Origin: Hericium rajendrae
Lineage: Eukaryota; Basidiomycota; Agaricomycetes; Russulales; Hericiaceae
Length of the DNA stretch: 64,000 bases
Assembly: GCA_033439255.1 (NCBI GenBank)
Contig: CM065890.1
Location: 124,001-188,000 of the forward strand
Direction of reading: 5' to 3'
Of this stretch, positions 1 through 17,082 are shown in pieces (the first letter of the stretch is position 1; every line of letters starts with the position of its first letter). The notes under the pieces are model-generated. The model was not told the DNA's origin, did not search any database, and saw nothing but the letters and a program-made list of their open reading frames with translations. The translations under genes were made by a program, and so were the position numbers.

Positions 1-2645
1 TCTCCTTTTCGAAATCGAGTAGAATTTGAGGCTGCAGATTTGCTTTTTCGAGAGATGCCAGTTTCTAAGAAGAAATTTAACCGTCTTATGGGAATGTGGG
101 CCAAAACTACTGATGCATATCCATATGCAAATAAAGATGATCTCCATGCAGTGCTTGATTCAATTGAGCATGGAGATGCTGAGTGGCTTTGTTTTGCAGT
201 AAAATATAAGGGAAAGCTACCTAAAAACCCACCTTCATGGATGTCAAAAGAATTTGAAGTCTGGTATCGCAATCCACATACACTTGTGCATAACCAACTA
301 AAAAATCCTGATTTTGCTAAAGAATTTGACTATGCTCCAAGGCGAAACTTTAAAGAAAATGGTGAACGACAGTGGACAGACTTTATGACTGGAGATTGGT
401 CATGGAAACAAGCTGATACAATTATGGCTGAAGATCCAACTAACAAAGGTGCTATGTTTGTGCCTGTAATTCTAGGCAGTGATAAAACTACAGTCTCTGT
501 TGCTACAGGACACAATGAATTTTGGCCACTGTATGGTTCAATTGGAAATGTGCATAACAATGTTCGTCGAGCTCATAGAGATGCTGTAAGCATCTTGGGA
601 TTTTTATCTCTTGGAAAAACAGATAGACGATATCAAAATGATGTGGCTTTTCGTAAATTTCGTCGGCATTTAATACAACAGTCTTTGCGTACAATTCTTG
701 AGCATTTGCGTCCTGGCATGACTACTCCAGAGATTGTTTGATGTTCTGATGGACATCTTCGTCGTGTTATTTATGGGATTGGACCTTATATTGGAGATTA
801 TCCTGAACAAGTGCTGGTATCTTGTATTGTTTCAGGTTGGTGTCCAAAATGCTTGTCTCGACCAAAAGATCTAGATGATGGAGGTGGTGGAACTCGAAGT
901 CATACACATACAGAATTTTTAATGAATCATGGCACTAAGGCAAAAGATCTCTGGGATAAATATGGCATAGTTCCTGATATCATGGTGAGTACAACTAGCT
1001 AAAATATAAAGTTTTGACTTATTCTAATTTATTTTCTTAGCCATTCACATTTTATTTTCCAAGAGGAGATATTCATGAGCTTATTGTATTTGATCTTTTG
1101 CATCAAGTAATCAAGGGTGTTTTCAAAGATCACTTGGTAGCTTGGGTTGAAGATTATCTGATTCATGAACATGGACCAACTCGTGCTTCTGGAATTATGG
1201 CAGATATTGATCAAAGAATTGCTGCTGCTCCTTCATTTCCAGAACTGCGTCGATTTCCTGAAGGACGTGGGTTTCAGCAATGGACTGGTGATGACTCTAA
1301 GGCTTTGATGAAGGTATATTTGCCTGCAATTCAAGGACATGTTCCAGATCAGATGGTTCGAGCTATTGCTGCATTCATGGAGTTCTGCTATCTTGCACGA
1401 AGGTCAACTATTGATGAGACTGCACTAAATGCTATGGAAGCTGCACTTGCAAAATTTCATAAAGAACGAGTTATCTTTAAGGATGTTGAAATTCGTGAAG
1501 CATTTTCTCTACCTAAACAGCATGCTCTGATGCATTATGTTGAACTTATTCGGCTGTTTGGTGTGCCAAATGGACTTTGCACATCTATAACTGAGGCCAA
1601 ACACATCAAAGCTGTAAAAGAGCCATGGCGACGTTCTAGCAGATTTAATGCACTCGAGCAGATGCTGCTCACAAATCAGAGGCTTGACAAACTTGCTGCA
1701 GCTAAAAATGACTTCATAGCTCGTGGCATGCTTGATTTGCCTCTAGATCTTGTCAACATTGATAATTCTAAATCTATATTAAACTCCTCTGAATCAGAAA
1801 TAGACTCAGACTATGAACCAGACTCCTCTGAATCTGAATCAGATTCAGATCTTGAATCAGATTCAGAACTTGAAGATGAAGATGAACTTAATGAAGATAA
1901 AGAAAAAGCTACAAAGCATCATATAGATGGAGGACCAGCATATGATGTGCCAGAATATATGGCAAATGTAACTTTAGCTAGAAAGAAAGCACCTCATTAT
2001 CCTCGAGAACTTCATAGGCTTGAAGGTCACATTGGTTATCCTGAGCTTTCTGAGATGATTCAAAGATTTGTGTATGATCAACTTCATCCTGATCATTCAT
2101 CAGCAGAATTAGAATTATCTGCACTTCCTCGAGCTCCATATAGAGTTGATGTATTTCATTCTGCTCTTGCTGTATATCGTTCTCCTAGTGATTTGTCAGG
2201 TCTGACAAACATGCATCGTCATCGCATTCGTTCTACACCAGAATGGCGATATGGACCTTCACGTCGAGATTGCATTTTTGTTGAAAGTGGCACAGAGTTA
2301 CCAGGAATGCAGGGACTTTTTATTGGACGAGTTCTTCTATTCTTTTCATTTGAATATCACAAAGTCACATATCCTTGTGCATATGTAGAGTGGTTTGTTC
2401 CTGTTGGAGAAGAGCCAGATCCTGATACCAAAATGTGGATTGTAGAGCGAGAACTTGATGAAGATGGCAACAATATTCGTTCTGTAATCCATGTTGATAG
2501 TATTTTGCGAGGAGCTCACTTGATGCCTGTTTTTGGAGCAGAATTTCTTCCTACTGACTTTAGACATACTTATTCCTTAGATTCCTTTTATACTTACTAT
2601 GTAAATAAGTTTTCTGATCATCATGCTAATGAAATAGCATTTTAA
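1..2645 (+). pseudogene. Plavaka-type transposase, copy 1 (5' end outside window)
   Basis: This is the transposase of a Plavaka-type DNA transposon, a CACTA-related group found in basidiomycetes. It would act in the nucleus by cutting and moving the element. The frame is already open at base 1 (SPFRNRVEFE...) and matches copy 2 from its residue 130 or so onward. A TGA at 739-741 interrupts it where copy 2 has an Arg codon (CGC). The same frame then continues to an intron at 985-1040 (56 bp, GTGAGT...TTAG). The next exon carries the family signature HQVIKGVFKDHLVAWVEDY. An Asp/Ser/Glu-rich linker lies at about 1780-1905, and the protein ends HANEIAF. The family call rests on recalled signatures; the reading frame and intron are seen directly. 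With one stop visible it is probably inactive unless the stop is read through. Confidence 0.85.
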
Positions 2646-3914
2646 ATTGATTGATGTGTTATTTTATATCTTTACAGTGTGATAAGTGCAATTAGGTTAA
2701 GTAATGTTACTATTTCTGTGTAAAAACTCTCATCCTTTTAGATTTTTAATATAAAGTCTCAAGAAAATGACTCAAAAATTTTATCTAACAACAAACATCT
2801 GTTTGAATATATCTGAGATAAGTTGATTGTCTAAAATCTAATACAAACTTTAACAAATTATAAATATACTAAACTCTAAAGTGTCTAAAATACACTTGAT
2901 GATAGAGATTCATCTAATTGTATCTGAAAAGTTATGATTGTCTGAGAAGTTTTTTATTATCTAATATGTTTCTTTATATCTGATAGATATTAAAAGTCTG
3001 AAGTCTCTAAAATATACTTGATAATAGAGATCTGTCTGATTGTATCTAAATAATATTGTTTGTCTGACAAAAACAATAGCATCTGATGAATGTACAATGT
3101 TTAAAGTATCTAAAATACACTTGATAATAGAGACTTATCTGATTGTATCTGAAAAGTTATAATTATCTACAAAGTTTCTTATTATCTGACAAGTTTACTT
3201 ACATCTAACAGATATTAGAAGTCTGAAGTGTCTGAAATATACTTGATGATAGGGACCTGTCTGATTGTATCTGAATAACATTGTTTGTCTAACAAAAACA
3301 ATAGCATCTGATGAATGCAAAATGTCTGAAGTGTCTAAAATATACTTGATGATAGAGACCTGTCTGATTGTATCTGAAAAGTTATAACTGTCTGAGAAGT
3401 TGTCCATTATCTGACAAGTTTACTTATATCTGACAGATATCAGAAGTCTGAAGTATCTAAAATATACTTGACGATAGGGACCCGTCTAATTGTATCTGAA
3501 TAACATTGTTTGTCTAACAAAAACAATAGCATCTGATGAATGCAAAATGTCTGAAGTGTCTAAAATATACTTGATGATAGAGTTTCATCTAATCATATCT
3601 AAAACTTGTAATTGTCTAATAAGTTTTTTATTATCTGACAAGTTTACTTATATCTGACAGATATTAGAAGTCTGAAGTATCTGAAATATACTTGACAATA
3701 GGGACCTGTCTAATTGTATCTGAAACATAGCAATTGTCTGAGGATTTAGTAAATGTCTGACAAGATTAGCTATGTCTAGTAGATTTTCAAAAATCTGACA
3801 GGTCTGATATTTGTCTAATTTTACAAAATGATCTACACACTATTTTATTCATATGTAAATCAGAGAAATGGACCTATCCAGAAATCTCAGACAAGAGTCA
3901 GACAGTCAGACCAG
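2646..3914. repeat. TCTGA(C) subterminal array with 225 bp tandem period
   Basis: AT-rich sequence packed with the pentamer TCTGA and its TCTGAC form. From about 2884 it is a tandem array. A landmark, TCTaAAATAyACTTGA, recurs at 2884, 3006, 3109, 3231, 3334, 3456, 3559 and 3680. The spacing alternates 122 and 103 bp, so the full unit is 225 bp and holds two diverged half-units, in about four copies. There is no credible coding potential. It lies just 3' of transposase copy 1, as the subterminal repeats of CACTA-like elements do, where transposase is known to bind. Binding here is inference. Confidence 0.8.
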
Positions 3915-4748
3915 TCAGAAGATTGCCCTTTTGCTGATGTTGCCTTGCGTTTTTGAGCCTTCTGGTTCTGCTGAGGGTCAAGGTAAGCACTTTCAAATGA
4001 TCAATAAAGACGTTACTGACCTTCTTTGTGCGCGACCTGACTTTCGTCGTCTCCATTAGCTCCTTGCGACTTCCCGTAAATCCTCCTTGGCTTGGGTTTC
4101 GAGGCAGGTGGTGGTGCTGGAATACGGAAAGCGTAAGGTGAGTTGTCTCGAATGACTGATGGATATGGTACTCACCTGCTTTGTTTGTGATCTCAGCATC
4201 ACTGTCTGCGGACGAGCGCTTTCCATTTCCATACGTCGTCTTCGGCTTCGGTTTTGGGCGCGCCGGTGGTGCTGAAGTGCCAAAGCGTGAGGTGAGTACC
4301 TTACTGTCTATAGCTGAAGGTGTTACTTACCATCTGTGGTCTCTATGTTGTCGTTATCTCCAGAGTCCTGTGCCTTCCTGTGCACCCTCTTCGGCTTAGA
4401 TTTCGAAGGGGCTGGTGGTCCTAGAGTGTGAAAGGCATAAGGTAAATAAGTTGTAGTCTATAGATGAAGCCTCGACTCACCGTCCATTGTCTCCACGTCA
4501 CCACCATCATCCCCATCCTTGCCTTGCCCGTTCGACTGTGTACCTTGCCTGCTCGACTTGGTCCCTTGCCCGGTCGACTTCCTGCGTGCTTGCTGGGCTG
4601 TCCGTGCTGCATCCTGTGTAGCCTTCTCAGCTGCCTCATCAGCCATAATATCTTCAGCGGTACGTCGTTTAGACTTTGGCTTGGCTGCCTTGCCTGTCGA
4701 GGCTTTGGCAGAGGCCTTGCTAGTATCAGACTGACGAGTTTTGACCAT
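3915..4748 (-). CDS. Five-exon transposon-associated gene with tandemly duplicated exons, function unknown
   Basis: Predicted 201 aa protein. Exons run 4748-4481, 4420-4331, 4271-4176, 4116-4021 and 3970-3915, separated by introns of 60, 59, 59 and 50 bp. All introns are phase 1 with GTNAGT donors and YAG acceptors, and the frame closes exactly. The N-terminus is basic and Lys/Ala/Ser-rich (MVKTRQSDTSKASAK), followed by KSKRRTAEDIMADEAAEK and a Gln/Gly/Lys-rich segment. Exons 2-4 are copies of one module: G/A-P-P-A, then KPKPRR or similar, then an Asp-rich tail. Such basic proteins can bind nucleic acid, but no domain is recognised. It is divergent from transposase copy 2 (724 bp apart) and ends inside the TCTGA array, so it is probably an accessory gene of the Plavaka-type element. 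No stop or frameshift is seen. Confidence 0.65.
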
Positions 4749-5471
4749 TGACAGGAGTGGAAGAAGGGGTGACACGACAGTAGCGCCAAGTGGTACGAGT
4801 GGGAGACGAGACTTGCCGACTCACTTGCGACCGGCCCTCAAGCTCACGTGAGCAGCTCGGCTCGCGCTGCCTTAGCTGCTGCGCCTCAGATCCTTGTACG
4901 ACTCCCCGTCCCGTCTCGAGCTTCTTGTTCAACAACCTACGCTGCGCTGCTTTTGACAACGTACAACACAGTGCTGCTTGAAATCACCCAACACACTACT
5001 GTATCTTATCATCTCACTTCACCAAGCACACGCTTGGTTGTAACGTGTGTGCGACTTGAGTCGATATCTTGATATCTTGTCTGGGGGCACTCTAGACTTA
5101 TCTTCGTGACCATACACTACTCAGGCTGCCATCACATTGATTGACTATCTTGTGCCTGGATTATCTGGATATTCATTGGCACATTCTAGACTGTTACTTG
5201 GAGCTGTATATGTGCATTGGTGATCTTGCTTGATACAATTTCTTGTCCATTGCTGATCTCTTGTGTGTGGAGACATCATACTGCTGGTGCATTGTTACTC
5301 TGATACTGTGATCTCCTTGACTCTGGAAAACAAATCTTGAAATCTGTTGTTGATTGTGAACTTGTCTTGAACTTTCTAGAGGCACATCTTGGCATATATT
5401 ATAATTTGTTGATTGCCTACTTGCCTTCAATTTGGAGTTGAATCTTGACACATAGTGAAGTTGCTGCACAG
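4749..5471. promoter_or_regulatory. Intergenic region between the divergent accessory gene and transposase copy 2
   Basis: About 720 bp without a supported gene. It must hold the start sites of both divergent genes if both are transcribed. The left third is GC-richer (about 4790-4960) and the right part is rich in CTTG and CTTGACT motifs. No clear TATA box was identified. Confidence 0.4.
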
Positions 5472-8400
5472 ATGGCACCTCCAAGACGAAAATTGTATAA
5501 ACCTCACACATATTTCTGTCCAAAACCTGTGAGTTCCAGGTGTTGACATGGATTCATAAGTGCTGGTGGCTTGGCCCAACATATAAATGCAGTACATCCA
5601 GACTTGCACAGAGATGCTTTATTGGCAGAGCCTTATCTTCCACCTCTAGCTCCACCTCAAGCTTCAACTCGTGTGCTATCTCCAGAACAGCCAGATATGT
5701 TTTATGCTGATCCACATTATGGTGAAGGCTATGATGGAGAAAATTCAAAGGCACAACATGGCACTAAAAATATAATGCACCCAGATCTAAATGGGAGACC
5801 ATGCGATGATGCTGGCAATTATCTTGATGATGATGCAGCTCCACAGCCAGAGAATATTCCTGATTCAAATGATTGGTCTCCATTTCGAAATCGAATTGAG
5901 TTTGAGACTGCAGATCTGTTGTTTCGAGAGATGCCAGTCTCTGAGAAGAAATTTAATCGTCTTATGGGACTCTGGGCAAAGACAACTAATGCAAATCCAT
6001 ATGCAAATAAAGATGATCTTCATGCAGTGCTTGATTCAATTAAACATGGAGATGCTGAATGGCTATGTTTTTCAGTAAGATATAAGGGCAAGCGACCTAG
6101 AGATTCACCTCCATGGATGTCAAAAGAATTTGAAGTCTGGTATAGAAATCCACGCACAGTTCTGCATAACCAGCTAAAAAATCCTGACTTTGCTGGAGAA
6201 TTTGACTATGCTCCAAGACGAGACTTTAAAGAAAATGGTGAACGACAGTGGACAGACTTTATGACTGGAGATTGGTCATGGAATCAGGCTGATACAATTG
6301 TAGCTGAAGATCCAACAAATAAAGGAGCTATGTTGGTGCCAGTGATCTTGGGCAGTGACAAGACTGTTGCTTCTGTTGCTACAGGACATAGTGAATTTTG
6401 GCCACTATATATATCACCTGGAAATGTGCATAATAATGTTCGTCGGGCTCATAGAAATGCTGTGAGCATCTTAGGATTCTTGTCTCTTGGACAAACAGAT
6501 AGACAATATCAAAATAGTGCACCTTTTCGTAAATTTCGTAGACATTTGATACAACAATCTTTGCGCACAATTCTTGAACATTTGCGTCCTGGCATGACTA
6601 CCCCAGAGATTGTTCGCTGTCCTGATGGACATCTTCGTCGTGCAATTTATGGTCTTGGACCTTATATTGGAGATTATCCAGAACAAGTATTGATATCATG
6701 CATTGTTTCAGGCTGGTGTCCAAAGTGCTTGGCTCTACCAAAGGATCTAGATGGTGGTGGAGAAACTCGATGTCATACACATACAGAATCCTTGATAAAT
6801 AAAGGTATCAAGGGAGGAAAACTGTGGGATGACTATGGCATAGTTCCTAATATAATGGTGAGTTTTATGAACTGAAATGAAGATTTAACTTGTTTTAATT
6901 CTGATCTTTTTAGCCATTCACATATTATTTTCCTCGGGCTGATATTCATGAGCTTATTGTATTTGATCTTTTGCATCAAGTGATCAAGGGTGTTTTCAAA
7001 GATCACTTAGTGGCTTGGGTTGAAGATTATCTGATTAAAGAACATGGACCAAGTCGTGCTGCTACAATCATGGCAGATATTGATAGAAGAATTGCTGCTG
7101 CACCTTCATTTCCAGAGTTGCGTCGATTTCCTGATGGACGTAATTTTCAGCAGTGGACTGGTGATGACTCTAAAGCTTTAATGAAAGTGTTTTTACCTGC
7201 CATTCAAGGACATGTTCCAGATCAGATGGTCCGAGCTCTTGCTGCATTTATGGAGTTCTGCCATCTTGCACAAAGGTCTGTTATTGATGAAACTGCACTA
7301 AATGCTATGGAAGCTGCACTTGAAGAATTTCATAAAGAACGAGTCATCTTTAAGGATGTTGAAGTTCGTGAAGGATTTTCTCTGCCTAAACAGCATGCTC
7401 TCATGCATTATGTTGAACTTATTCGGCTATTTGGTGTGCCAAATGGTCTTTGCACATCTATAACTGAGGCCAAACACATCAAAGCTGTAAAAGAGCCATG
7501 GTGACGTTCTAGTCGATTTAATGCACTTAGTCAAATGCTGCTCACAAATCAGAGGCTTGATAAATTGGCTGCAGCCAAAAATGACTTTATTGCTCGTGGT
7601 ATGCTTGATTTGCCTTTGGATGCTGTTGATATTAAATATGACTCTGACTCAAATGACTCTAAATCTGAATCCTCATCTGACTCTGAAGATGAGATTGACT
7701 TTGATGATGAAGATGAAAATAAGGAGAACACTGCAAGGGCTACTAAACACCATATAGATGGAGCACCAGCTCATAATGTGCCAGAGTATATGGCAAGTGT
7801 TTCTTTAGCCAAAACACGAGCATCCAATTATCCTCGACAACTTCATCTGCTTGAGACTTATCTTGATTATCCTGAGTTATCTGAGATGATTCAGCGATTT
7901 TTATATGATCAACTTCATCCTAATCATTCATCTGCATATGTAGAGGAGTCTAAACTGCCTCGTGCTCCATACAAAATTGATATATTTCACTCTGCCATTG
8001 CTGTATATCGTTCTCCTAGCGATTTATCAGGGCTTACAAATATGCACCGTCATCGTATTCGCTCTACACCTGAATGGAGACATGGACCTGCACGTCGAGA
8101 TTGTGTCTTTGTTGAAAATGATTCAGAGTTGCCAGGAATGCAAGGACTTTATGTAGGACGAGTTCTGATGTTTTTTTCATTTGTGCACAATACAGTCACA
8201 TATCCTTGTGCATATATAGAGTGGTTTATTACTGTTGGAGATGAGCCAGATCCTGATACTAAAATGTGGATTGTAGAACAAGAAGTAGATGAAGATGGCA
8301 AGAATGTTCGCTCAGTAATTCACATTGATACTATTTTGCGAGGAGCTCACTTGATGCCTATTTTTGGAGAAGAGTTTCTTCCTTTTGACTTTGAATATAT

Positions 8401-8476
8401 CTACTCCTTAGATGCCTTTCATACATACTATGTAAACAAGTTTTCTGATCATCATGCCAATGAAATAGCCTTCTGA
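5472..8476 (+). pseudogene. Plavaka-type transposase, copy 2, with in-frame TGA codons
   Basis: Full-length transposase copy. The likely start ATG at 5472 opens a C2H2-like finger (YFCPKP...GGLAQHINAVH), as usual at the N-terminus of this family. A TGA at 5544-5546 falls inside the finger. The frame then runs to an intron at 6858-6913 (56 bp, same place and length as in copy 1). It next carries HQVIKGVFKDHLVAWVEDY and meets a second TGA at 7502-7504, where copy 1 reads CGA (Arg). An acidic linker lies at about 7630-7735 and the end is HANEIAF, as in copy 1. Both copies are clearly alike over their whole length but not identical. The second TGA is a direct CGA-to-TGA change. The first could alternatively lie in an unrecognised short intron. 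Confidence 0.85.
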
Positions 8477-9776
8477 TTTAAGTATTTGGATCTTTTTTTT
8501 AGTATACTATATGACAATAGCCTAGGTAAGTGATAAAGTTATTTTTTATCAAAGTAAAATTAGACATCCAATAAATATAACAATTCTAATGATAGACACC
8601 TGTAGAATCTATGTCTGACACTTATCATAGATCTGACTACTTATAAAAGTCTGATGACATTTATTATATCTGACATCTGAATGCATCTGACAATAGACAT
8701 CTACAGAAATTTTGTCTGAACTTTGTAATGTGTCTGATTATATTTTTATGTCTGACTTGATAAAAAAATCTGAAATGTCTGACAATAGACACCTGTAGGA
8801 TTTATATCTGACATTTGTAATATGTCTGATGTTTAATACAAAGTCTGATTATATTTGTTATGTCTGACAATATTTGAAACTCTGAAAGATCTGAGAATGC
8901 CTAACAATAGACACTTGTAAGACTTTGTCTGAACTTTATAATATATCTGACTATATTTTTTGCATCTGACTCGATATAAAAATCTGAAATGTCTGACGAT
9001 AGACACCTGTAGGATTTAGATCTAACCTTTGTAATATGTCTGATGTTTGATACAAAGTCTGATAATATTTGTTGTGTCTGACAGAATTTGGCACTCTGAA
9101 AGGTCTGAGAATGTCTAATGATAGACACCTGTAGGATTTTGTCTGAACTTTGTAATATAGTCTGACTATATTTCTTATGTCTGACTCAATATAAAAATCT
9201 GAAATGTCTGACGATAGACACCTGTAGGATTTAGATCTGACCTTTGTAATATGTCTGATGTTTGATACAAAGTCTGATAATATTTGTTGTGTCTGACAGA
9301 ATTTGGCACTCTGAAAGGTCTGAAAATGTCTAATGATAGACACCTGTAGGATTTTGTCTGAACTTTGTAATATAGTCTGACTATATTTCTTATGTCTGAC
9401 TCAATATAAAAATCTAAAATGTCTGACGATAGACACCTGTAGGATTTAGATCTGACCTTTGTAATATGTCTGATGTTTGATACAAAGTCTGATAATATTT
9501 GTTGTGTCTGACAGAATTTGGCACTCTGAAAGGTCTGAAAATGTCTAACGATAGACACCTGTAGGATTTTTATCTGAAAATTGTTGATTTATCTGAAAAA
9601 ATGTCCAATCTCTGACAAAATTACCAATGTCTGAATATTTTTGAAGATCTGATAGCTCTGATAGCATCTGAAGCACATCTGAAAGTGAAAAGTATCTACT
9701 CATCATTTTATGCATATTTTGGTCCAGACAATTGAAAAAATTCAGACAAATCAGATTGTCAGACAAGTTAGTAAAT
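8477..9776. repeat. TCTGA(C) subterminal array with 215 bp tandem period
   Basis: AT-rich non-coding sequence 3' of transposase copy 2, built on TCTGAC. The landmark GTCTGACRATAGACACCTGTAGG starts at 8777, 8991, 9206 and 9421, a period of 214-215 bp over about four copies. The last copies are nearly identical. The unit differs in sequence and length from the 225 bp unit after copy 1, but uses the same core motif and sits in the same place. The right end (about 9680-9795) resembles the right end of the first array, including TATG-ATAAAAT, GTAGAT and CTTTTGCTGATGTTG, which places the equivalent element boundary here. Confidence 0.85.
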
Positions 9777-9819
9777 ATGGCTTTTGCTGATGTTGGGGAG
9801 CTGCTTCTCGCCACTACAT

Positions 9820-10241
9820 TGTCAAGACTCGGTCGTAGACAGCAGAGAACCACCCAAGTCACCAGCGATGATGAGAGCGAGAGAGCAGAGAGCGACTAGC
9901 AGCGCAGTGACCTGTATTGGAGGTACAGTACGGTACAGACGAAATGGACAATCTAGGGAAATAGGCGAGCGACAGGGAGCCTATAAGTACTGGGACGACA
10001 ATGGGAAAAGAACAATGGACACCATAATGGGTCGAACAATAGAGTGAGAACAATGGTGGCCAAAAGGAGAACAATGGGGGGAGAACAATAGGATGTCCCA
10101 AAGGGGAACAAGGGCATGGGTGAAGGATAGCCCCAGGTCATGTGAGGAAGTGAACATGTGATGGGGCTGCTGGAGCACATGACCGACGCGATGCCTTGAT
10201 GGCAGAGAAGAAGGCGGAGAGAAATGGAGCGATCCGTGACA
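9820..10241 (-). repeat. 3' LTR of the Gypsy element (left copy)
   Basis: A 422 bp terminal repeat that starts TGTCAAGACTCGG and ends GATCCGTGACA. It matches 16489-16911 almost base for base. The preceding TACAT at 9815-9819 is the target duplication. Confidence 0.95.
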
Positions 10242-10249
10242 TCACCCCC

Positions 10250-13200
10250 TCTCTAAGACGCACTTTCGCCTGGAGTGCGTGATGAGCATGGACGGGGTCG
10301 AGGTAGATGAGTCCACAAAGATTGGGAGCCTTGAGTGCATGCGGATGGCGGGTGTAGAAGTCGGTGATTGCACCATGGGCATTGGAAAGGGAGGTACGTG
10401 AAAGCCACTGATTTTCCGAATCAGGGTAGCCTGCCCATTTGACGAGATATTCAATGCCGCGTTTGTTCCGAGTGAGACGAGCATCGAGGACAGACTCAAC
10501 TTCGTACTCTTCCTCGCCCTCCACAAGGTCAGGTGGTGGTGCAGGGAAGTTGGGACCATGAGCATCGGTTTCCTTGTAAGGGGACAACAGGGACGTGTGG
10601 AACACCGGGTGGATACGCCAGGTGGGCGGTAGCTTCAGTCGATAAGAGACTGGGCCCAGGACGTCAGTGATTTCGAAAGGTCCTAGGCGTCGATCAGCAA
10701 GCTTAGCTTTGGGTCGCGTGGTTTTGATGTTCTTGCCATCGAGCCAGACCTTGTCACCAACCTGGAAGTGGATGGTGTCGTGCATATGGTCCTGGTTGTT
10801 GCGCTTCATGAGATCAGCAGCTGTTTGAAGGCTGGCCTGGACCTCAGTGCGAAGTTGTTCGAGGTGACGGAAACGATCCTCGACAGCGGGTGTAGACGAT
10901 GTGGGGTTGACAGTGGGGATGGCAGTGGGAATATAGCCGAGGAGCATTTCAAATGGAGCTCGGTTAGTGGCGCTGTGGATACGGTGGTTGTGCGAGAACT
11001 CAGCGTAAGGGAGCCATTGGACCCAATCATCCTGATGGTAGTTGCAGAAGGTACGAAGGAACTGCTCGAGTTCTTGATTGACGCGTTCTGACTCGCCGTC
11101 GGTCTGTGGATGATAGGCGGTGCTGAGGGAGGACTTGATACCAAGTTTGTCAAAGACGCCACGCATGACTTTGCCTGCATACTGTGGGCCACGATCAGAG
11201 ATGAGGCGTTCCCAGAGGCCGTAGTTCCGATAAATCCTGTCAAAAAGGATGTCGACTGTGCCATCACTGGTAATGGTCTCTTTACAAGGAGTGAAGGAGA
11301 CGTGCTTTGTAAAACGGTCGACGACCACATTGATGGAGTCATAGCCTTGGCATTCTGGGAGTTTGACGATGAAGTCCGAGGTAATGTCTTGGAAGGGACG
11401 GGTAGGGATGGCATTGGGAATTGTTTCAACATGAGGGCGGTGATTTTGAACCTTGGTGGCCTGGCAGGTAGCACAGCCATCAACATAATCACGAACAAAG
11501 ACAGACATACCGGGCCACCAGTAGTTGCGACTGAGGAGCTCATAGGTCTTGTAGCGTCCTGGGTGACCAGCCATGGGGGTGTCATGATGCAGTTTGACGA
11601 TGTCCCGACGAAGGTCCTTGTCAGCAGGGATGTAGACTTTGCCACGAAAGAGGATGAGGCCATCCTCGTAGTTCCATTCTTGGAGGTTCTTGACGAGGGA
11701 GCGAGGACCATTGTTCAGGATCACATCAAGGGCTTGAACAACCTCAATGTCCTTGGTCTTGGCATTGCGAATGCGTTGGCGAAGATCAGCATTGCCAATG
11801 GACTTGACAGCAGCTGGACGTGTAGCACGGATCTGGAAGTACTTGGGGTCGAGGAGGACATGATCGGAGTTGTCGTCGTCCACCCCCTCTCTATGGTCAG
11901 GTCGTCTCGACATGGCATCTGGTCGGTGATGAATACCGGGTTTGTGGATCAGGGTGAAGTCGAAACGAGTGAGGAAGAGAGCCCAGCGAGCTTGACGACG
12001 ACTCAGCTTTTGGGCAGACTTGAAGTATTCCAGGTTCTTATGGTCGGTCCAGATCTCCACAGTATGGGGAGAACCTTCCAGGTAGTGGCGCCAGGCTTCG
12101 AGGGCGCGGATGATGGCCAGGAGTTCCTTGTCATAGATGTCGTAGTTGCGTTCGGGGGCAGTGAAGGCCTTGGAGATGTAAGCAACAGGGTGCCATTGCT
12201 CGTCCTCCCGCGCTGGGATAGGATACCTCCTGTGGCATAGTCTGAGGCATCGACCTCAACCAGGTAGGGTTTGGACGGGTCAGGCATGATAAGGACTGGG
12301 GACGAGGTGAACGCAGCTTTGAGAGCCTCAAAGGCATGTTGACATTCAGCAGACCAGGCCCAAGGATGGTCTTTCTTGGTAAGGTCAAACATGGGATGAG
12401 CGACTTTGGAGAAGTCCTGGATAAAGCGTCGATAGAAGTTGCCAAAGCCAACAAAGGACTGGACGTCCTTGACGTTACGAGGGGCAGGCCATTCAGCAAT
12501 GCCTGCAACCTTGACGGGGTCCATGGCGAGCGTGTTATGGGAGACGATGAGACCGAGGAACTCAACTGAGGGCTGCTCGAATGAGCACTTCTCTGGTTTG
12601 AGGAAGAGGTCATTGTCCTGGAGGCGTTGGAGGACCTTGCGCACAAGGTCGCGATGTTCTTCGAGGGTTTCGGTGAAAATGAGGATATCGTCCATGTAGA
12701 TGACGACTTTGCCCGTATCAATGAGATCCTTGAAAAGTTCATTCATCATTCCTTGGAACGTGGCAGGGGAGTTGGTAAGACCAAAAAACATCACCAGGGG
12801 TTCAAAGAGACCGCGGTTGGTTTTGAAGGCGGCCTTCCATTCGTCGCCCTCCTTGATGCGAACGTTGTTGTAACCCCAACGAACGTCCATCTTGGAGAAG
12901 ACTTTGGCACCCTTGAGCTTGTCAACGAGTTCAGAGATGAGGGGCAGGGGATATTCATTCTTGATGGTGCCTTTGTTGAGGTGCGATAGTCCTGGACGGG
13001 GCGTAGTTTTCCATCTTTTTTCTTGATAAAGAAGAAGGGACTCGCCATAGGGGATTTGGAAGGGCGGATGTAGCCTTTCTTGACCTGGTCATCAAGGAAT
13101 GAATCGAGGTCCTCCTGCTCAGTAGGAGCCATGGGATAGACCTTGCATGAACGGGGTTCAAAACCATCTTTCAGGTCAATGGCGTGATCCCAAGGGCGAC

Positions 13201-14242
13201 GTTCGGGGAGGCGATGGGAGGATTCCTCGTCGAAGACAGGTTGGAAATCCTGATACTGAGGGGGAACCATCTCAGCAAAGGACTTCTCTGCAACACGAGT
13301 GGCCACACGCTCCGCCAGTTTCTGAGCATTGGTGAAAGAGCGACGGATACGGATGGTGTGTCGATAGTCGGGGTCGTCGTCTGGTGGGGGTGGTGTGTCC
13401 CAGTCAGGGAGAACACCAGCTAGACGAAGGCCCTCTTCAACCCAGTCATCATCGACATTAGGTCGGGGGTCATCGTCCTCGGTGAATAGACGTGCAGGGA
13501 CTTTGGACAGGTGGATGCGGCGAAGGCGGACACCTTGGACTTGGCGAGCAGGGATCACGTATTTGGGAAGTGGAGCAGCGACAAATGGTGGGGGCAGTGG
13601 GAGCAATGGAGGGGGGCAAGGTGGGGGGAGCAGTACTGCAGCAGTGCTGAGGACTGGTGGACAAGGGGCTGAGTGGCGACGTTCAGTGCGAGTGGACAGG
13701 TTCTTGACCGGGGGTTTATTCAGAGTGCAAGAGGGAGGGCAGCGAGTCATGTCGACACGACGAGAGACCCAATCGATTTCAGGGTTGTGTTCCTGTAACC
13801 AATCGGTCCCAAGGATAATGTCGTAGTCACCAATGTCAACGAGATAGAACTCAGCTGTCTCCTCATGGAAGGACGTCGAGTCCTTGGCATAAATGCGGAT
13901 GTTCTGGTTGACTGAATAGCGGACCCAGCCCACGATGTTTTCAGAGTTGTCCACATTGCGAACGGGAAAGGGTTTAGGGAGTTTCTTGAGGGGGAACTGG
14001 TGTTTCTTGGCAAACTCGGGGTGCATAATGATGCCTTCTGCACCACTATCGAGAAGTGCCTCAGCGTCGATTTGTTTCTTGATCGGGGTAGTGATAATCT
14101 TGGCCTGGAGCGTAATGGATGGTGTCTGACGGTTGGGCGTGATAGCGGACATGCGCAAAGACGATGGATACGATTGCTCACAGGGGTCGGATAGTATAGA
14201 GAAGCGATTCGACGGATCAAAGAAATGTTTCTTGCCACCCAC
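10250..14242 (-). mobile_element. pol region of the Gypsy element
   Basis: Polyprotein region on the minus strand. From right to left it carries: an aspartic protease around 13.8-14.1 kb (LLDSGAEGIIM, a DSGA-type active site); reverse transcriptase around 12.5-13.1 kb (VIYMDDILIF, the YMDD box); RNase H around 12.0-12.4 kb (VEVDASDYATGGILSQ); an integrase zinc finger and core around 10.9-11.6 kb (H-H-C-C in HHDTPMAGHPG...CATCQATK, then DFIVKLP); and a chromodomain around 10.3-10.5 kb (VESVLDARLTRNKRGIEYLV). The chromodomain is known in this clade to steer integration toward heterochromatin. The region is interrupted in about two places. Confidence 0.9.
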
Positions 14243-14265
14243 GGACGACGTGACCGGGGGGCGCT

Positions 14266-15255
14266 TTAAAAACCCTCAACCATATCCTTTAAAGCAGCTT
14301 TTGCCTCTTCCCTCTCTTCCTCGCTCAAGTCCTTCAACTGCGACGATAAGTCAGCGATGGACCTGTTGATGGCGGGGACAGCGAGGGCGGCGGCTGCATC
14401 TTCTGGAGCTACTCCCGGGGCAGAGCCGGTTTCTAGCGCTCGGACACGAGGGATTGGGGCACGGGGGTTGGAGTCGGCATTGAGGGGGCAGTCGCGGAAG
14501 CCATGGCCCTTCTGGCAGCAGCGGAAGCAACTGCCCTCACGCCTGAGACGCTCACGGTCAGGCTCCGAGAGTTTGGGCAGTGGGGCACCTGTAGCAGCAA
14601 CTGTGCGGGATCGGCCAGTGGACGTGGACTGAGGGGAGCGAGTGCTCACCGGGGTGCGCCCAGTTGTAGGGCGGGGACTCTGGAACCTGGTGCGCATGAG
14701 GTAGGCAGCATTCCGGTCACGCGCCCTCGCCTTCCACTCATCCAGGGTGGTGGGCGTGGGGTAGCTGCACTGGCAATCATCCCGCAAGGCACTGTTGAGG
14801 CCATGCAGGAACCAATCGATCAGGGCCACATCGTTGTAGCCGGTGCGAGGAGCGAAGGACTCGAACTCGGTGATGTAGTCGACTACCGGGCGTGTACCCA
14901 TCTGGAGGGTCTGGATGGCATGGGAGGCGTCCTTGGAGTCATCAAGGGGGGAGAAGTCCAAATTGAAGCGAGTTCGAAGGGCAGCGAGGTTGGCGTAGCG
15001 AGGGACATGGGCTGGAGATGTGGCTGCAGCCACAAGATCGTCATCCTCAAGGATCTCCTCGACACGCTGGGTGGCCCACTGGCCAGCGATAGGGCCCTGG
15101 CAGAGGTCGAGGAAGAGGGAGATCTGGGCGGTATCATCTTTATACCGGGTAGAGTTGGCGCGAAGGAATAAGCGAATACGCAACTGGAACTCCTTGGACT
15201 TGGAACGATCTCCCTGAAAGGGAGCAGGTTTGAGGCCGATCTCGGGGTTGGACAT
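14266..15255 (-). mobile_element. gag region of the Gypsy element
   Basis: Minus-strand capsid/nucleocapsid coding region of about 330 residues. The N-terminal part resembles the retrotransposon gag family (KPAPFQGDRSKSKEFQLRI, then RWATQRVEEI-like helices). A nucleocapsid CCHC zinc knuckle, CFRCCQKGHGFRDC, lies near the C-terminus. It lies upstream of pol, as expected. Confidence 0.85.
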
Positions 15256-16488
15256 GTCGTCGGGCGGCTGAACAGGGGGAGCTGGGGCAATGATCGGTTT
15301 GACGTTGACGGTGGATGTTGATGCAACAGCAGCAATGGGTGGAGCAGGTGAGGGGACTGGTACTGGGGTAGGCGTTGAAACAGGTGGTGGTAGTGGGGCC
15401 CGAAGGGTATCGAGGCGGGTAGCTTGTTGCTGAGCGAGATTCTCTATAACTGCCTGAGAGAGTGCAAGTTCTGCAGTGGTTAAGAAGAGGGTACTGGCCT
15501 GCCAAAACCACAGGTCACTTTCTTCTACGAGGCTGGGTCTCCAACTGACTACAAGCCGATTGGTGTTGGAGCGGTATGCGTAGTAGTTGTTGGTTACCGG
15601 GTTGAAGGTGATACCTGAGGGAACAACAAGTGGTGTGGTGCGAGCAGGGGGAGAATCTGCACTAGGAAGGGCAATGGTGGGAAGCGGTGGGGTAGCGGGG
15701 TGTTGGCGGCGGTGTTCTGTGGCTGCGACGTCGAAGTCATTAAGCTCGAGGTCTGCCTGGTCGTCACGATCAGCGAAGTACCACTGTGCGGGACCGTCGT
15801 CGTCCTCCGGGACAAAGTCTATTCGAACGATGCCAGAAAGGGTGTAGATGAAGTATTCGTCGAGCGAGGCAAAGACGCCGAGTGGGTATGGTTCTGTGGT
15901 CTGGAAACGGGGGTCGGTGGGATCAATGGTGAGGTCTAGAGGAAGTCAGCCGCAACTGGGCGATGACCAAGAGCACGAGGGTACAGGGGGTCCGAGTATG
16001 GGGTTCTGAGGAATCGGTGGCCGAGGCGTTCTCTGGCCCACACAGGCTCAGGCGAGGGTTCCGGGGTGAAGAGACCTAGTGTGCAAAAGGGGAACGAGGT
16101 CAATGGTAGGATACTTGCAGGGGATCCTCGGTTGGGTTGGCGACAGTGGTAAGCAATGTCCGAGGCACCAAACGTGAATTCTTGCAAGTCAACGTCAAAG
16201 GAAACTCGAATTCGAACGTATAAGGCAATGGAGATAGCACCTGCACGTGGTTTCCACGACCTCAATCGAAACCAAACTCCTTCGGCTTCCCAACGCTTCA
16301 CAGCACAATAGCGGAGGAGGGGGATGAGTGCACTGCCCTCGATGGTGTTGGCGATGGGAAAGGGAAGATGAGGTTGATGGAATGGATGTCGAGATTCGGT
16401 GAAGATGTCGGCGGTGAAGGGTTCAAAGAAGAAAGGTATGATGGGCGATAGTAGGGAGGTGAGGCGGGTGTATGAGAGATTGTCCAGG
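15256..16488 (-). mobile_element. Leader region of the Gypsy element
   Basis: About 1.2 kb between the 5' LTR and the clearly recognisable gag frame, with no domain I recognise. A TGG lies two bases inside the 5' LTR border on the minus strand and could begin a primer-binding site. I could not match it to a specific tRNA. Confidence 0.6.
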
Positions 16489-16911
16489 TGTCAAGACTCG
16501 GTCGTAGACAGCAGAGAACCACCCAAGTCACCAGCGATGATGAGAGCGAGAGAGCAGAGAGCGACTAGCAGCGCAGTGACCTGTATTGGAGGTACAGTAC
16601 GGTACAGACGAAATGGACAATCTAGGGAAATAGGCGAGCGACAGGGAGCCTATAAGTACTGGGACGACAATGGGAAAAGAACAATGGACACCATAATGGG
16701 TCGAACAATAGAGTGAGAACAATGGTGGCCAAAAGGAGAACAATGGGGGGGAGAACAATAGGATGTCCCAAAGGGGAACAAGGGCATGGGTGAAGGATAG
16801 CCCCAGGTCATGTGAGGAAGTGAACATGTGATGGGGCTGCTGGAGCACATGACCGACGCGATGCCTTGATGGCAGAGAAGAAGGCGGAGAGAAATGGAGC
16901 GATCCGTGACA
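16489..16911 (-). repeat. 5' LTR of the Gypsy element (right copy)
   Basis: A 423 bp terminal repeat nearly identical to 9820-10241; the visible difference is about one base in a G-run. It is followed by TACAT at 16912-16916, the second copy of the target duplication. On the minus strand it lies upstream of gag, so it is the 5' LTR. Confidence 0.95.
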
Positions 16912-16914
16912 TAC

Positions 16915-17082
16915 ATGAAGGCGATTGATGCTCTTTCTGATCAGAAGTGGGAGTTGATCATGGAGCTGGCTGAGATAGCTTGTGCTTCCAAGCGTAAGAA
17001 GCATCCTCAGACTGAGTCTGGTGTTTTGGATGCAGGTGCTCGTCGTCGGACAGGCCTTGTGGATTATCTGTCTGATGATTAA
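16915..17082 (+). CDS. Short open frame cut off by the Gypsy insertion, function unknown
   Basis: Encodes 55 residues from the ATG at 16915 (MKAIDALSDQKWELIMELAE...), with a Lys/Arg-rich patch (SKRKKHPQ) and the end VDYLSDD. It begins in the target duplication right beside the LTR. In the uninterrupted site the same frame would extend a little into the bases left of 9819. The composition looks coding and unlike the AT-rich TCTGA sequence that follows. It may be the last exon of another Plavaka-associated gene. No family is recognised. Confidence 0.4.
   Translation: MKAIDALSDQKWELIMELAEIACASKRKKHPQTESGVLDAGARRRTGLVDYLSDD

Follow-up and report, generated by a model that had tools for sequence, protein, structure and literature searches.

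The locus analysed here raises the question of how a gene of small, similar exons came to stand back to back with a Plavaka transposase, and of what such a gene does in a transposon. The question was addressed in a 64,000-nucleotide stretch of the Hericium rajendrae genome (C13:124001-188000, referred to here as the window) and by searches of the genome, comprising 46.8 Mb on 19 contigs. The gene, designated gene X, is located on the minus strand and is divergent from the Plavaka transposase, both being contained within a PlavakaB element, element A (C13:111855-133792), the right end of which lies at window position 9792.

An array of phase-matched exons

In the window, gene X starts with a 268 bp exon 1 (4481-4748), which has its ATG at 4748 and contains KSKRRTAEDIMADEAAEKA; a similar motif is present in the exon-1 frames of all nine copies of the gene that were modelled, in degenerate form in L029. 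Three module exons follow, namely exon 2 (4331-4420; 90 bp; GPPAPSKSKPKRVHRKAQDSGDNDNIETTD), exon 3 (4176-4271; 96 bp; APPARPKPKPKTTYGNGKRSSADSDAEITNKA) and exon 4 (4021-4116; 96 bp; APPPASKPKPRRIYGKSQGANGDDESQVAHKE), and these are delimited by intron 1 (4421-4480; 60 bp), intron 2 (4272-4330; 59 bp), intron 3 (4117-4175; 59 bp) and intron 4 (3971-4020; 50 bp). Exon 5, like all of the preceding features on the minus strand, is represented by its start (3940-3970), severed by a nested element, TE1. The exon model is free of stops and confirmed the lengths that a sequence-only reading of this DNA had assigned to exons 2 to 4, as well as their phase 1 at both start and end (phase 1-1). Splicing of the gene is predicted from conserved frames and splice sites.

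The same reading had proposed a tandem repeat composed of intron plus exon, which was borne out by pairwise comparison of the units. Intron+exon pairs yielded z-scores of 7.3, 8.4 and 8.6, and exon+intron pairs 8.1, 9.5 and 7.1, while none of 500 dinucleotide shuffles scored as high for any pair. The module exons by themselves are identical at 61/108, 66/98 and 63/99 aligned positions (z 3.9, 7.2 and 5.2; again 0/500 shuffles for each pair). Exons 2 to 4 and their introns constitute a diverged tandem repeat of intron+exon units. The array was not reported by Tandem Repeats Finder or by a second repeat search, as its copies are only ~56-67% alike.

The resemblance that had been noted among the introns holds for part of the pairs. 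When introns alone were compared with shuffles, the scores of i1-i2, i2-i3 and i2-i4 were never reached (0/500), those of i1-i3 and i3-i4 were reached once each (1/500) and that of i1-i4 was reached 33 times (33/500). A control of 337 between-family pairs was assembled from 28 other introns of the gene X family, including a misjudged fifth intron of L029, which is followed by stops, and one L011 intron from a 3' exon model begun in the wrong frame; this control is conservative, since near-orthologous introns of L026 and L028 form part of it. The fraction of control pairs scoring as high was 0.033 for i1-i2, 0.021 for i2-i3 and 0.098 for i2-i4, and 0.136, 0.276 and 0.617 for i1-i3, i3-i4 and i1-i4, respectively. 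Intron homology on its own is clear for i1-i2 and i2-i3 only, i3-i4 and i1-i4 being ordinary. Furthermore, among the 32 modelled short introns, 27 contain CTCAC and 17 the longer CTCACCT, so that the block shared by the introns is partly a common, branch-site-like splicing signal.

Gene X of the window is split by a nested PlavakaB element

Gene X had initially been drawn as an apparently intact gene ending at 3915, and neither statement could be upheld. A DNA search of the genome identified a twin of window 3940-4695 and 4694-4790 at C13:57015-58078 (L011), the two copies being 99.7-99.8% identical over window 3940-8712. The likeness stops at 3940, and window 2614-3940 is identical to the end of another Plavaka copy (L013). 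In the twin, exon 5 is followed by several kb more of coding sequence, with exons up to a C-terminal domain, and the remaining exons of the window gene were located outside the window, at C13:113040-116865 (L019). TE1 (C13:116866-127939; 11,074 bp) starts with CATCAG, ends with CTGATG and is flanked on both sides by TT, one copy being located at window 3940-3941 and the other preceding C13:116866; the matching site of the twin has a single TT. Exon 5 is cut by TE1 at window 3939/3940, and the last exon as first drawn runs into the terminus of this element. What the window contains of gene X is the 5' part; the full gene is longer, has been split by the nested PlavakaB element TE1 and is dead as a result of this insertion in exon 5.

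The right part of TE1 occupies window 1-3939 on the plus strand, its transposase extending to 2645 and its TCTGA-rich subterminal repeats covering 2646-3939, with the terminus CTGATG at 3934-3939. TE1 also carries a divergent gene X homologue of its own (L018). Within its right subterminal part, a 225-bp unit is repeated in tandem ~3.2 times (89% matches) at window 3000-3724.

The twin is damaged as well. Its exon 1 harbours a 211-bp palindrome (91%; L011 4771-4981) with CATCA..TGATG ends and a CT duplication; this palindrome is interpreted as a small PlavakaB relative that is non-autonomous. In addition, a stop codon occurs in the acidic-repeat exon of the twin, whereas the outlying half of the window copy has none there. 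PlavakaB ends also interrupt another gene X on C13 (L027/L025), which has parts at ~64.4-69.3 kb and 81.2-81.6 kb and misses ~280 bp relative to L022. In L035, a GC-rich stretch with a short tandem repeat, GTACGCGAGGCGCGCAGGTC (~5550-5640), interrupts yet another gene X.

On the other side of gene X, the intergenic region between the divergent start codons (window 4749-5471), which is part of a block differing between elements, is followed by the transposase of element A (5472-8476, plus strand), the PF18759 domain of which was detected by profile search at 5571-6875 (E 1.7e-104; 350 bits vs a cut-off of 26.3). This transposase is broken, as had been recognized at the outset, by a premature TGA at 7502-7504, and the open frame listed here measures 196 aa vs 520 aa in the twin. 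The transposase of TE1 reads CGA at this position; likewise, the premature TGA of L011 (2019-2021) corresponds to CGA in another repeat of the exon concerned. A premature TGA facing CGA in a sister sequence is a possible trace of CpG-directed mutation.

The right subterminal repeats and terminus of element A (8477-9792, plus strand) end with CTGATG at 9792. Element A was inserted, with a TT duplication, in a third gene X, the one belonging to L021. The exon hit is c4, a short piece of which is located at 9793-9819 and the remainder at 16912-17079 (plus strand), beyond an LTR retrotransposon. The latter (9820-16911) lies inside the same c4 exon, 27 bases from element A, and has 424-bp repeats that are 99.8% identical and a TACAT duplication.

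Exon number differs between gene X families

For nine copies representing seven families (the window copy, L012, L022, L023, L018, L028, L026, L030 and L029), a model was built that reaches at least as far as the exon bearing the signature 'EVVI....KR.R.E.E'; each model starts at the ATG, except for that of L018, which starts inside the exon-1 frame. L020, L037, L021, L025, L027 and L035 were left out as near-copies, partial copies or copies read by eye. Ahead of the signature exon, three module exons were identified in the window copy and in L029 (72 bp each), a single one in L012 (99 bp), L022 (81 bp), L023 (81 bp) and L030 (99 bp), and none in L018, L028 and L026, while tblastn indicated three modules in L011. 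The signature exon itself is doubled in L022 and L023 (270 and 315 bp), and further small 1-1 exons follow it in L028, L026 and L030. Modelled internal exons are 1-1 up to the exon preceding a long late intron, and that exon ends in phase 2 in L012 and L018. Stop codons are present in modelled exons of L023 and L030.

The long intron before exon e7 measures 200-258 bp (L011 3169-3368, L012 2555-2812 and L018 5011-5224) and holds GGCGCTCG or GGGCGCT motifs in these three families examined. Exon 1 of L022 (6670-6391) includes an in-frame 60-bp stretch of the form GTAAGT..CTCACC..CAG, the 3' part of which alone occurs in exon 1 of L029; it looks like a former or optional intron.

Because each module exon is 1-1, any number of modules leaves the frame open. 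The proposition that copy number is free to change in frame agrees with the presence of zero, one or three modules in different families. The near-identical pairs compared showed no difference in module number (three in both the window copy and L011, one in both L022 and L023), so that no recent change has been caught.

The modules of L029, compared using a second model of this copy (L029b) with other acceptors, are identical to each other at 45/75, 50/75 and 58/75 positions (z 4.4, 7.4 and 11.6), the last value being that of exons b and c. The nine pairs of L029 and window modules are not clearly alike (z -0.6 to 2.0), indicative of arrays that arose apart or drifted beyond recognition. The single module of L012 is nearest to exon 3 of the window (70/103; z 8.8), and the intron that follows it matches introns 2 and 4 of the window at 42/60 positions.

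Convergence could in principle produce such likeness, the exons resembling each other as KP-rich and D-rich low-complexity sequence and the introns through a splicing signal or the spread of introners. The ordinary scores of the intron-4 pairs and of i1-i3 relative to other introns of the family, together with the frequency of CTCAC, would fit this explanation; the unit scores that shuffling never attained, the correspondence of L012 with exon 3 and with the introns, and the separate, more similar array of L029 speak against it, and convergence is regarded as improbable. Introner elements were rejected, as the genome search with gene X revealed no further intron places among the matches listed, the intron sequence occurring there in the window copy, its twin and L012 only; short diverged copies could escape such a search. 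Descent of exons 2 to 4 from one unit copied in tandem is the preferred reading, in which unequal recombination would add and remove units, within a region that is probably disordered and tolerates length change.

A constrained C-terminal domain resembling DUF6532

The N-terminal region of the gene X protein is rich in repeats, alternates between basic and acidic segments and is built of small phase 1-1 exons. It is followed by acidic and KTPAK-type repeats and then by a conserved domain of ~300 residues. To judge by composition, the N-terminal array is probably disordered, and composition together with a basic motif suggests a nuclear protein.

The C-terminal domain was aligned for eight of the gene X copies that carry it. 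Pfam DUF6532 (PF20149) matches five of these eight members at E up to 1 (best 7.3e-4), and the sole score seen, that of the L028 member, was 17.3 bits, below the curated cut-off of 24. The profile search gave no DUF6532 match for the C-terminal domains of element A, L018 and L029. The protein, initially described as unknown, can thus be narrowed to a family distantly resembling DUF6532, of which it would be a remote relative with unconfirmed membership. A search of solved structures with the C-terminal domain returned four rows at E 0.75-1.6, none of them credible, and a pattern search of viral contigs gave 36 matches, none of which is a relative. The dN/dS ratio (NG86; seven copies, three exons of the domain) was 0.03-0.56 in 21 of 21 pairs, and dS approached or exceeded 1 for most comparisons of distant families; these ratios indicate that the domain is under constraint.

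Association of gene X with Plavaka loci across the genome

The PF18759 search yielded at least 132 rows, merged by script to at least 79 Plavaka loci (best candidates scored), and the rows of the gene X and DUF6532 searches were merged by hand to 51 loci, with one row per locus and with pieces of one split gene counted apart (e.g. C13:111592 and C13:140903). A gene-X/DUF6532 locus was found head to head, i.e. upstream, on the opposite strand and within 14.5 kb, at 35 of the 79 listed Plavaka loci, which substantiates the earlier proposal of a tie between this gene and Plavaka. The pairs comprise 37 upstream-opposite, 8 upstream-same, 5 downstream-opposite and 2 downstream-same arrangements. 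Head-to-head pairs involve 32 of the 51 partner loci, three of them twice; in this count, the element A transposase was paired with the gene X of TE1, its own partner being split. Direct DUF6532 matches (E up to 0.01) define 17 loci, 11 of which are head to head upstream of a Plavaka transposase. These arrangement counts were relied on instead of a random-placement control (mean 1.1/79), because the latter used guessed sizes for C2, C5, C8 and C18. An exon-1 match at C10:1440894 (L036) was dropped, as no exon-1-like frame was seen on inspection.

The gene X/DUF6532 searches found no partner for 44 of the 79 listed Plavaka loci. Some of these loci appear to be fragments, and others may belong to other Plavaka groups or have partners too diverged to find.

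The 19 of 51 gene-X/DUF6532 loci that have no head-to-head Plavaka locus, some being pieces of split genes, and the occurrence of PlavakaB ends inside gene X copies would be expected of a family of host genes that Plavaka inserts into or next to. Such an origin is nevertheless highly improbable, given the near-identical whole units at different genomic places, and a host gene was rejected on the grounds that gene X lies within the CATCA/TGATG termini of both TE1 and element A and keeps a fixed order relative to the transposase at the 35 listed loci. The CATCA..TGATG termini were confirmed in TE1 and element A, both with TT as target-site duplication, and candidate termini of this form were identified at L012, L022 and L028. 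According to PMC12730594, PlavakaB elements have 5'-CATCA..TGATG-3' termini and target-site duplications of 2-3 bp; the elements described here share with this group (CMCT clade, CACTA-like; PF18759) the transposase domain, the termini and the 2-bp duplications.

Mosaic structure between elements

Elements that are 87-100% identical in transposase and C-terminal domain were found to have an intergenic and N-terminal block that barely aligns. Between L011 and L012, identity was 95-99% over the C-terminal exons and their introns, then 85-68%, then 34-70% over the N-terminal half and the intergenic region, and 89-95% rising to 99-100% in the transposase. The profile of L011 vs L022 has the same shape (87-93%, 65-78%, 32-58% and 88-97%, successively). 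Between L028 and L030, identity fell from 91-94% on the C-terminal side to 40-57%; in the transposase, alignment was confined to a single window (95%). The control pair L022-L023, belonging to the same subfamily, was 96-100% identical in 23 windows, the last three windows (42-49%) lying beyond ~8.9 kb of L022. Around exons e6b-e7, L012 is 72-75% identical to L022, L025 and L023, the flanks being nearest to L011; for this stretch, no L011 match was present among the matches listed.

Because intron identity varies along the elements as well, the mosaic cannot be due solely to selection on the protein, and exchange or gene conversion between elements would be its simplest reading. Assembly error is unlikely for blocks present in two or more copies and possible in the middle of L012, a block found once.

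The ends of the elements were compared with the N-terminal half. Element A and L012 have similar ends (88.9% identical on the left, 96.4% on the right) and an N-terminal half that is barely alignable, whereas the ends of element A and L022 differ too (79.5% on the left and, over 1091 bases, 70.5% on the right), again with an N-terminal half that barely aligns. A role of the N-terminal array as reader of the ends is disfavoured by the former comparison and compatible with the latter. Should the ends be read by gene X, this task would more likely fall to the conserved C-terminal domain.

A possible, if somewhat doubtful, interpretation is that the shared promoter and the N-terminal array form a cassette for diversity, which turns over by duplication and exchange and confers a subfamily-specific regulatory identity, while similarity is maintained in the transposase, in the C-terminal domain and often also at the ends. 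That identity might serve, for instance, to evade silencing by the host or cross-control exerted by sister elements.

Gene X as a putative cofactor of transposition

The dense subterminal TCTGA repeats and the presence of a second gene in both element A and TE1 make a cofactor role the leading idea. The subterminal parts of these two elements contain 30-47 TCTGA per kb, compared with 3.6 per kb in the interior of TE1 and ~2 per kb after base shuffling of three of the four parts. By analogy with the system discussed below, these repeats could be binding sites for the gene X protein. Taken together, gene X is the second gene of a PlavakaB element, with exons that probably derive from tandem copying of a unit and with a product that, we infer, acts as a cofactor of transposition. 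The protein would be a nuclear accessory factor working with the transposase, its conserved C-terminal domain performing the specific work and its exon array providing a flexible charged tether.

The main rival to the cofactor role is a role against silencing. As an anti-silencing or regulatory factor, gene X would act in an element whose 5' region, once changed, is no longer subject to homology-dependent silencing or to cross-repression from sister elements. This would account for a variable block that spans the shared intergenic region and the N-terminus while the ends of element A and L012 stay alike, and a precedent may be seen in the PlavakaB elements of two Agaricales species, which carry a TET/JBP dioxygenase that has been read as a means of methylation escape (PMC12730594). 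The constrained C-terminal domain, matching no known protein besides the weak DUF6532 resemblance, argues against it, and such a role is considered rather unlikely. In the PlavakaB elements described there, the extra gene is of the TET/JBP type, whereas the extra gene described here is DUF6532-like and has an array of phase 1-1 exons.

For the cofactor role, the closest parallel is TNPA of the CACTA element En/Spm, which works beside the transposase as a DNA-binding protein recognizing the subterminal repeats; proteins of this type diverge quickly between elements (PMC2613891). The two systems are alike in having a two-protein element, a fast-diverging multi-exon partner, a conserved transposase and dense subterminal repeats. 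They differ in that TNPA is a splice product of one transcript, whereas gene X is a separate divergent gene.

In the tandem duplication of symmetric (1-1) exons, a phase-matched exon is copied along with its flanking intron, so that the frame is kept. Gene X shares with such cases adjacent homologous exons of matching phase and homologous introns; unlike the usual cases, its arrays are found in the second gene of a transposon, at different exons in different families and inside a mosaic block. Tandem exon duplication is a known process, and its setting in a DUF6532-like partner of PlavakaB was not met in the portions of the literature searched. Those portions contained no link between DUF6532 and Plavaka, both being merely named among the additional domains of two Ganoderma species, and the PF20149 matches of five out of eight gene X members do not include the domain of element A itself.

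These findings add a second gene to a group of mushroom transposons that is common but little studied, and indicate where its function may be sought. Families with zero, one or three phase-matched units in one genome represent a natural series for the growth and shrinkage of exon arrays, and the mosaic structure makes it possible to test in other fungal genomes whether DNA transposons evolve in a modular way.
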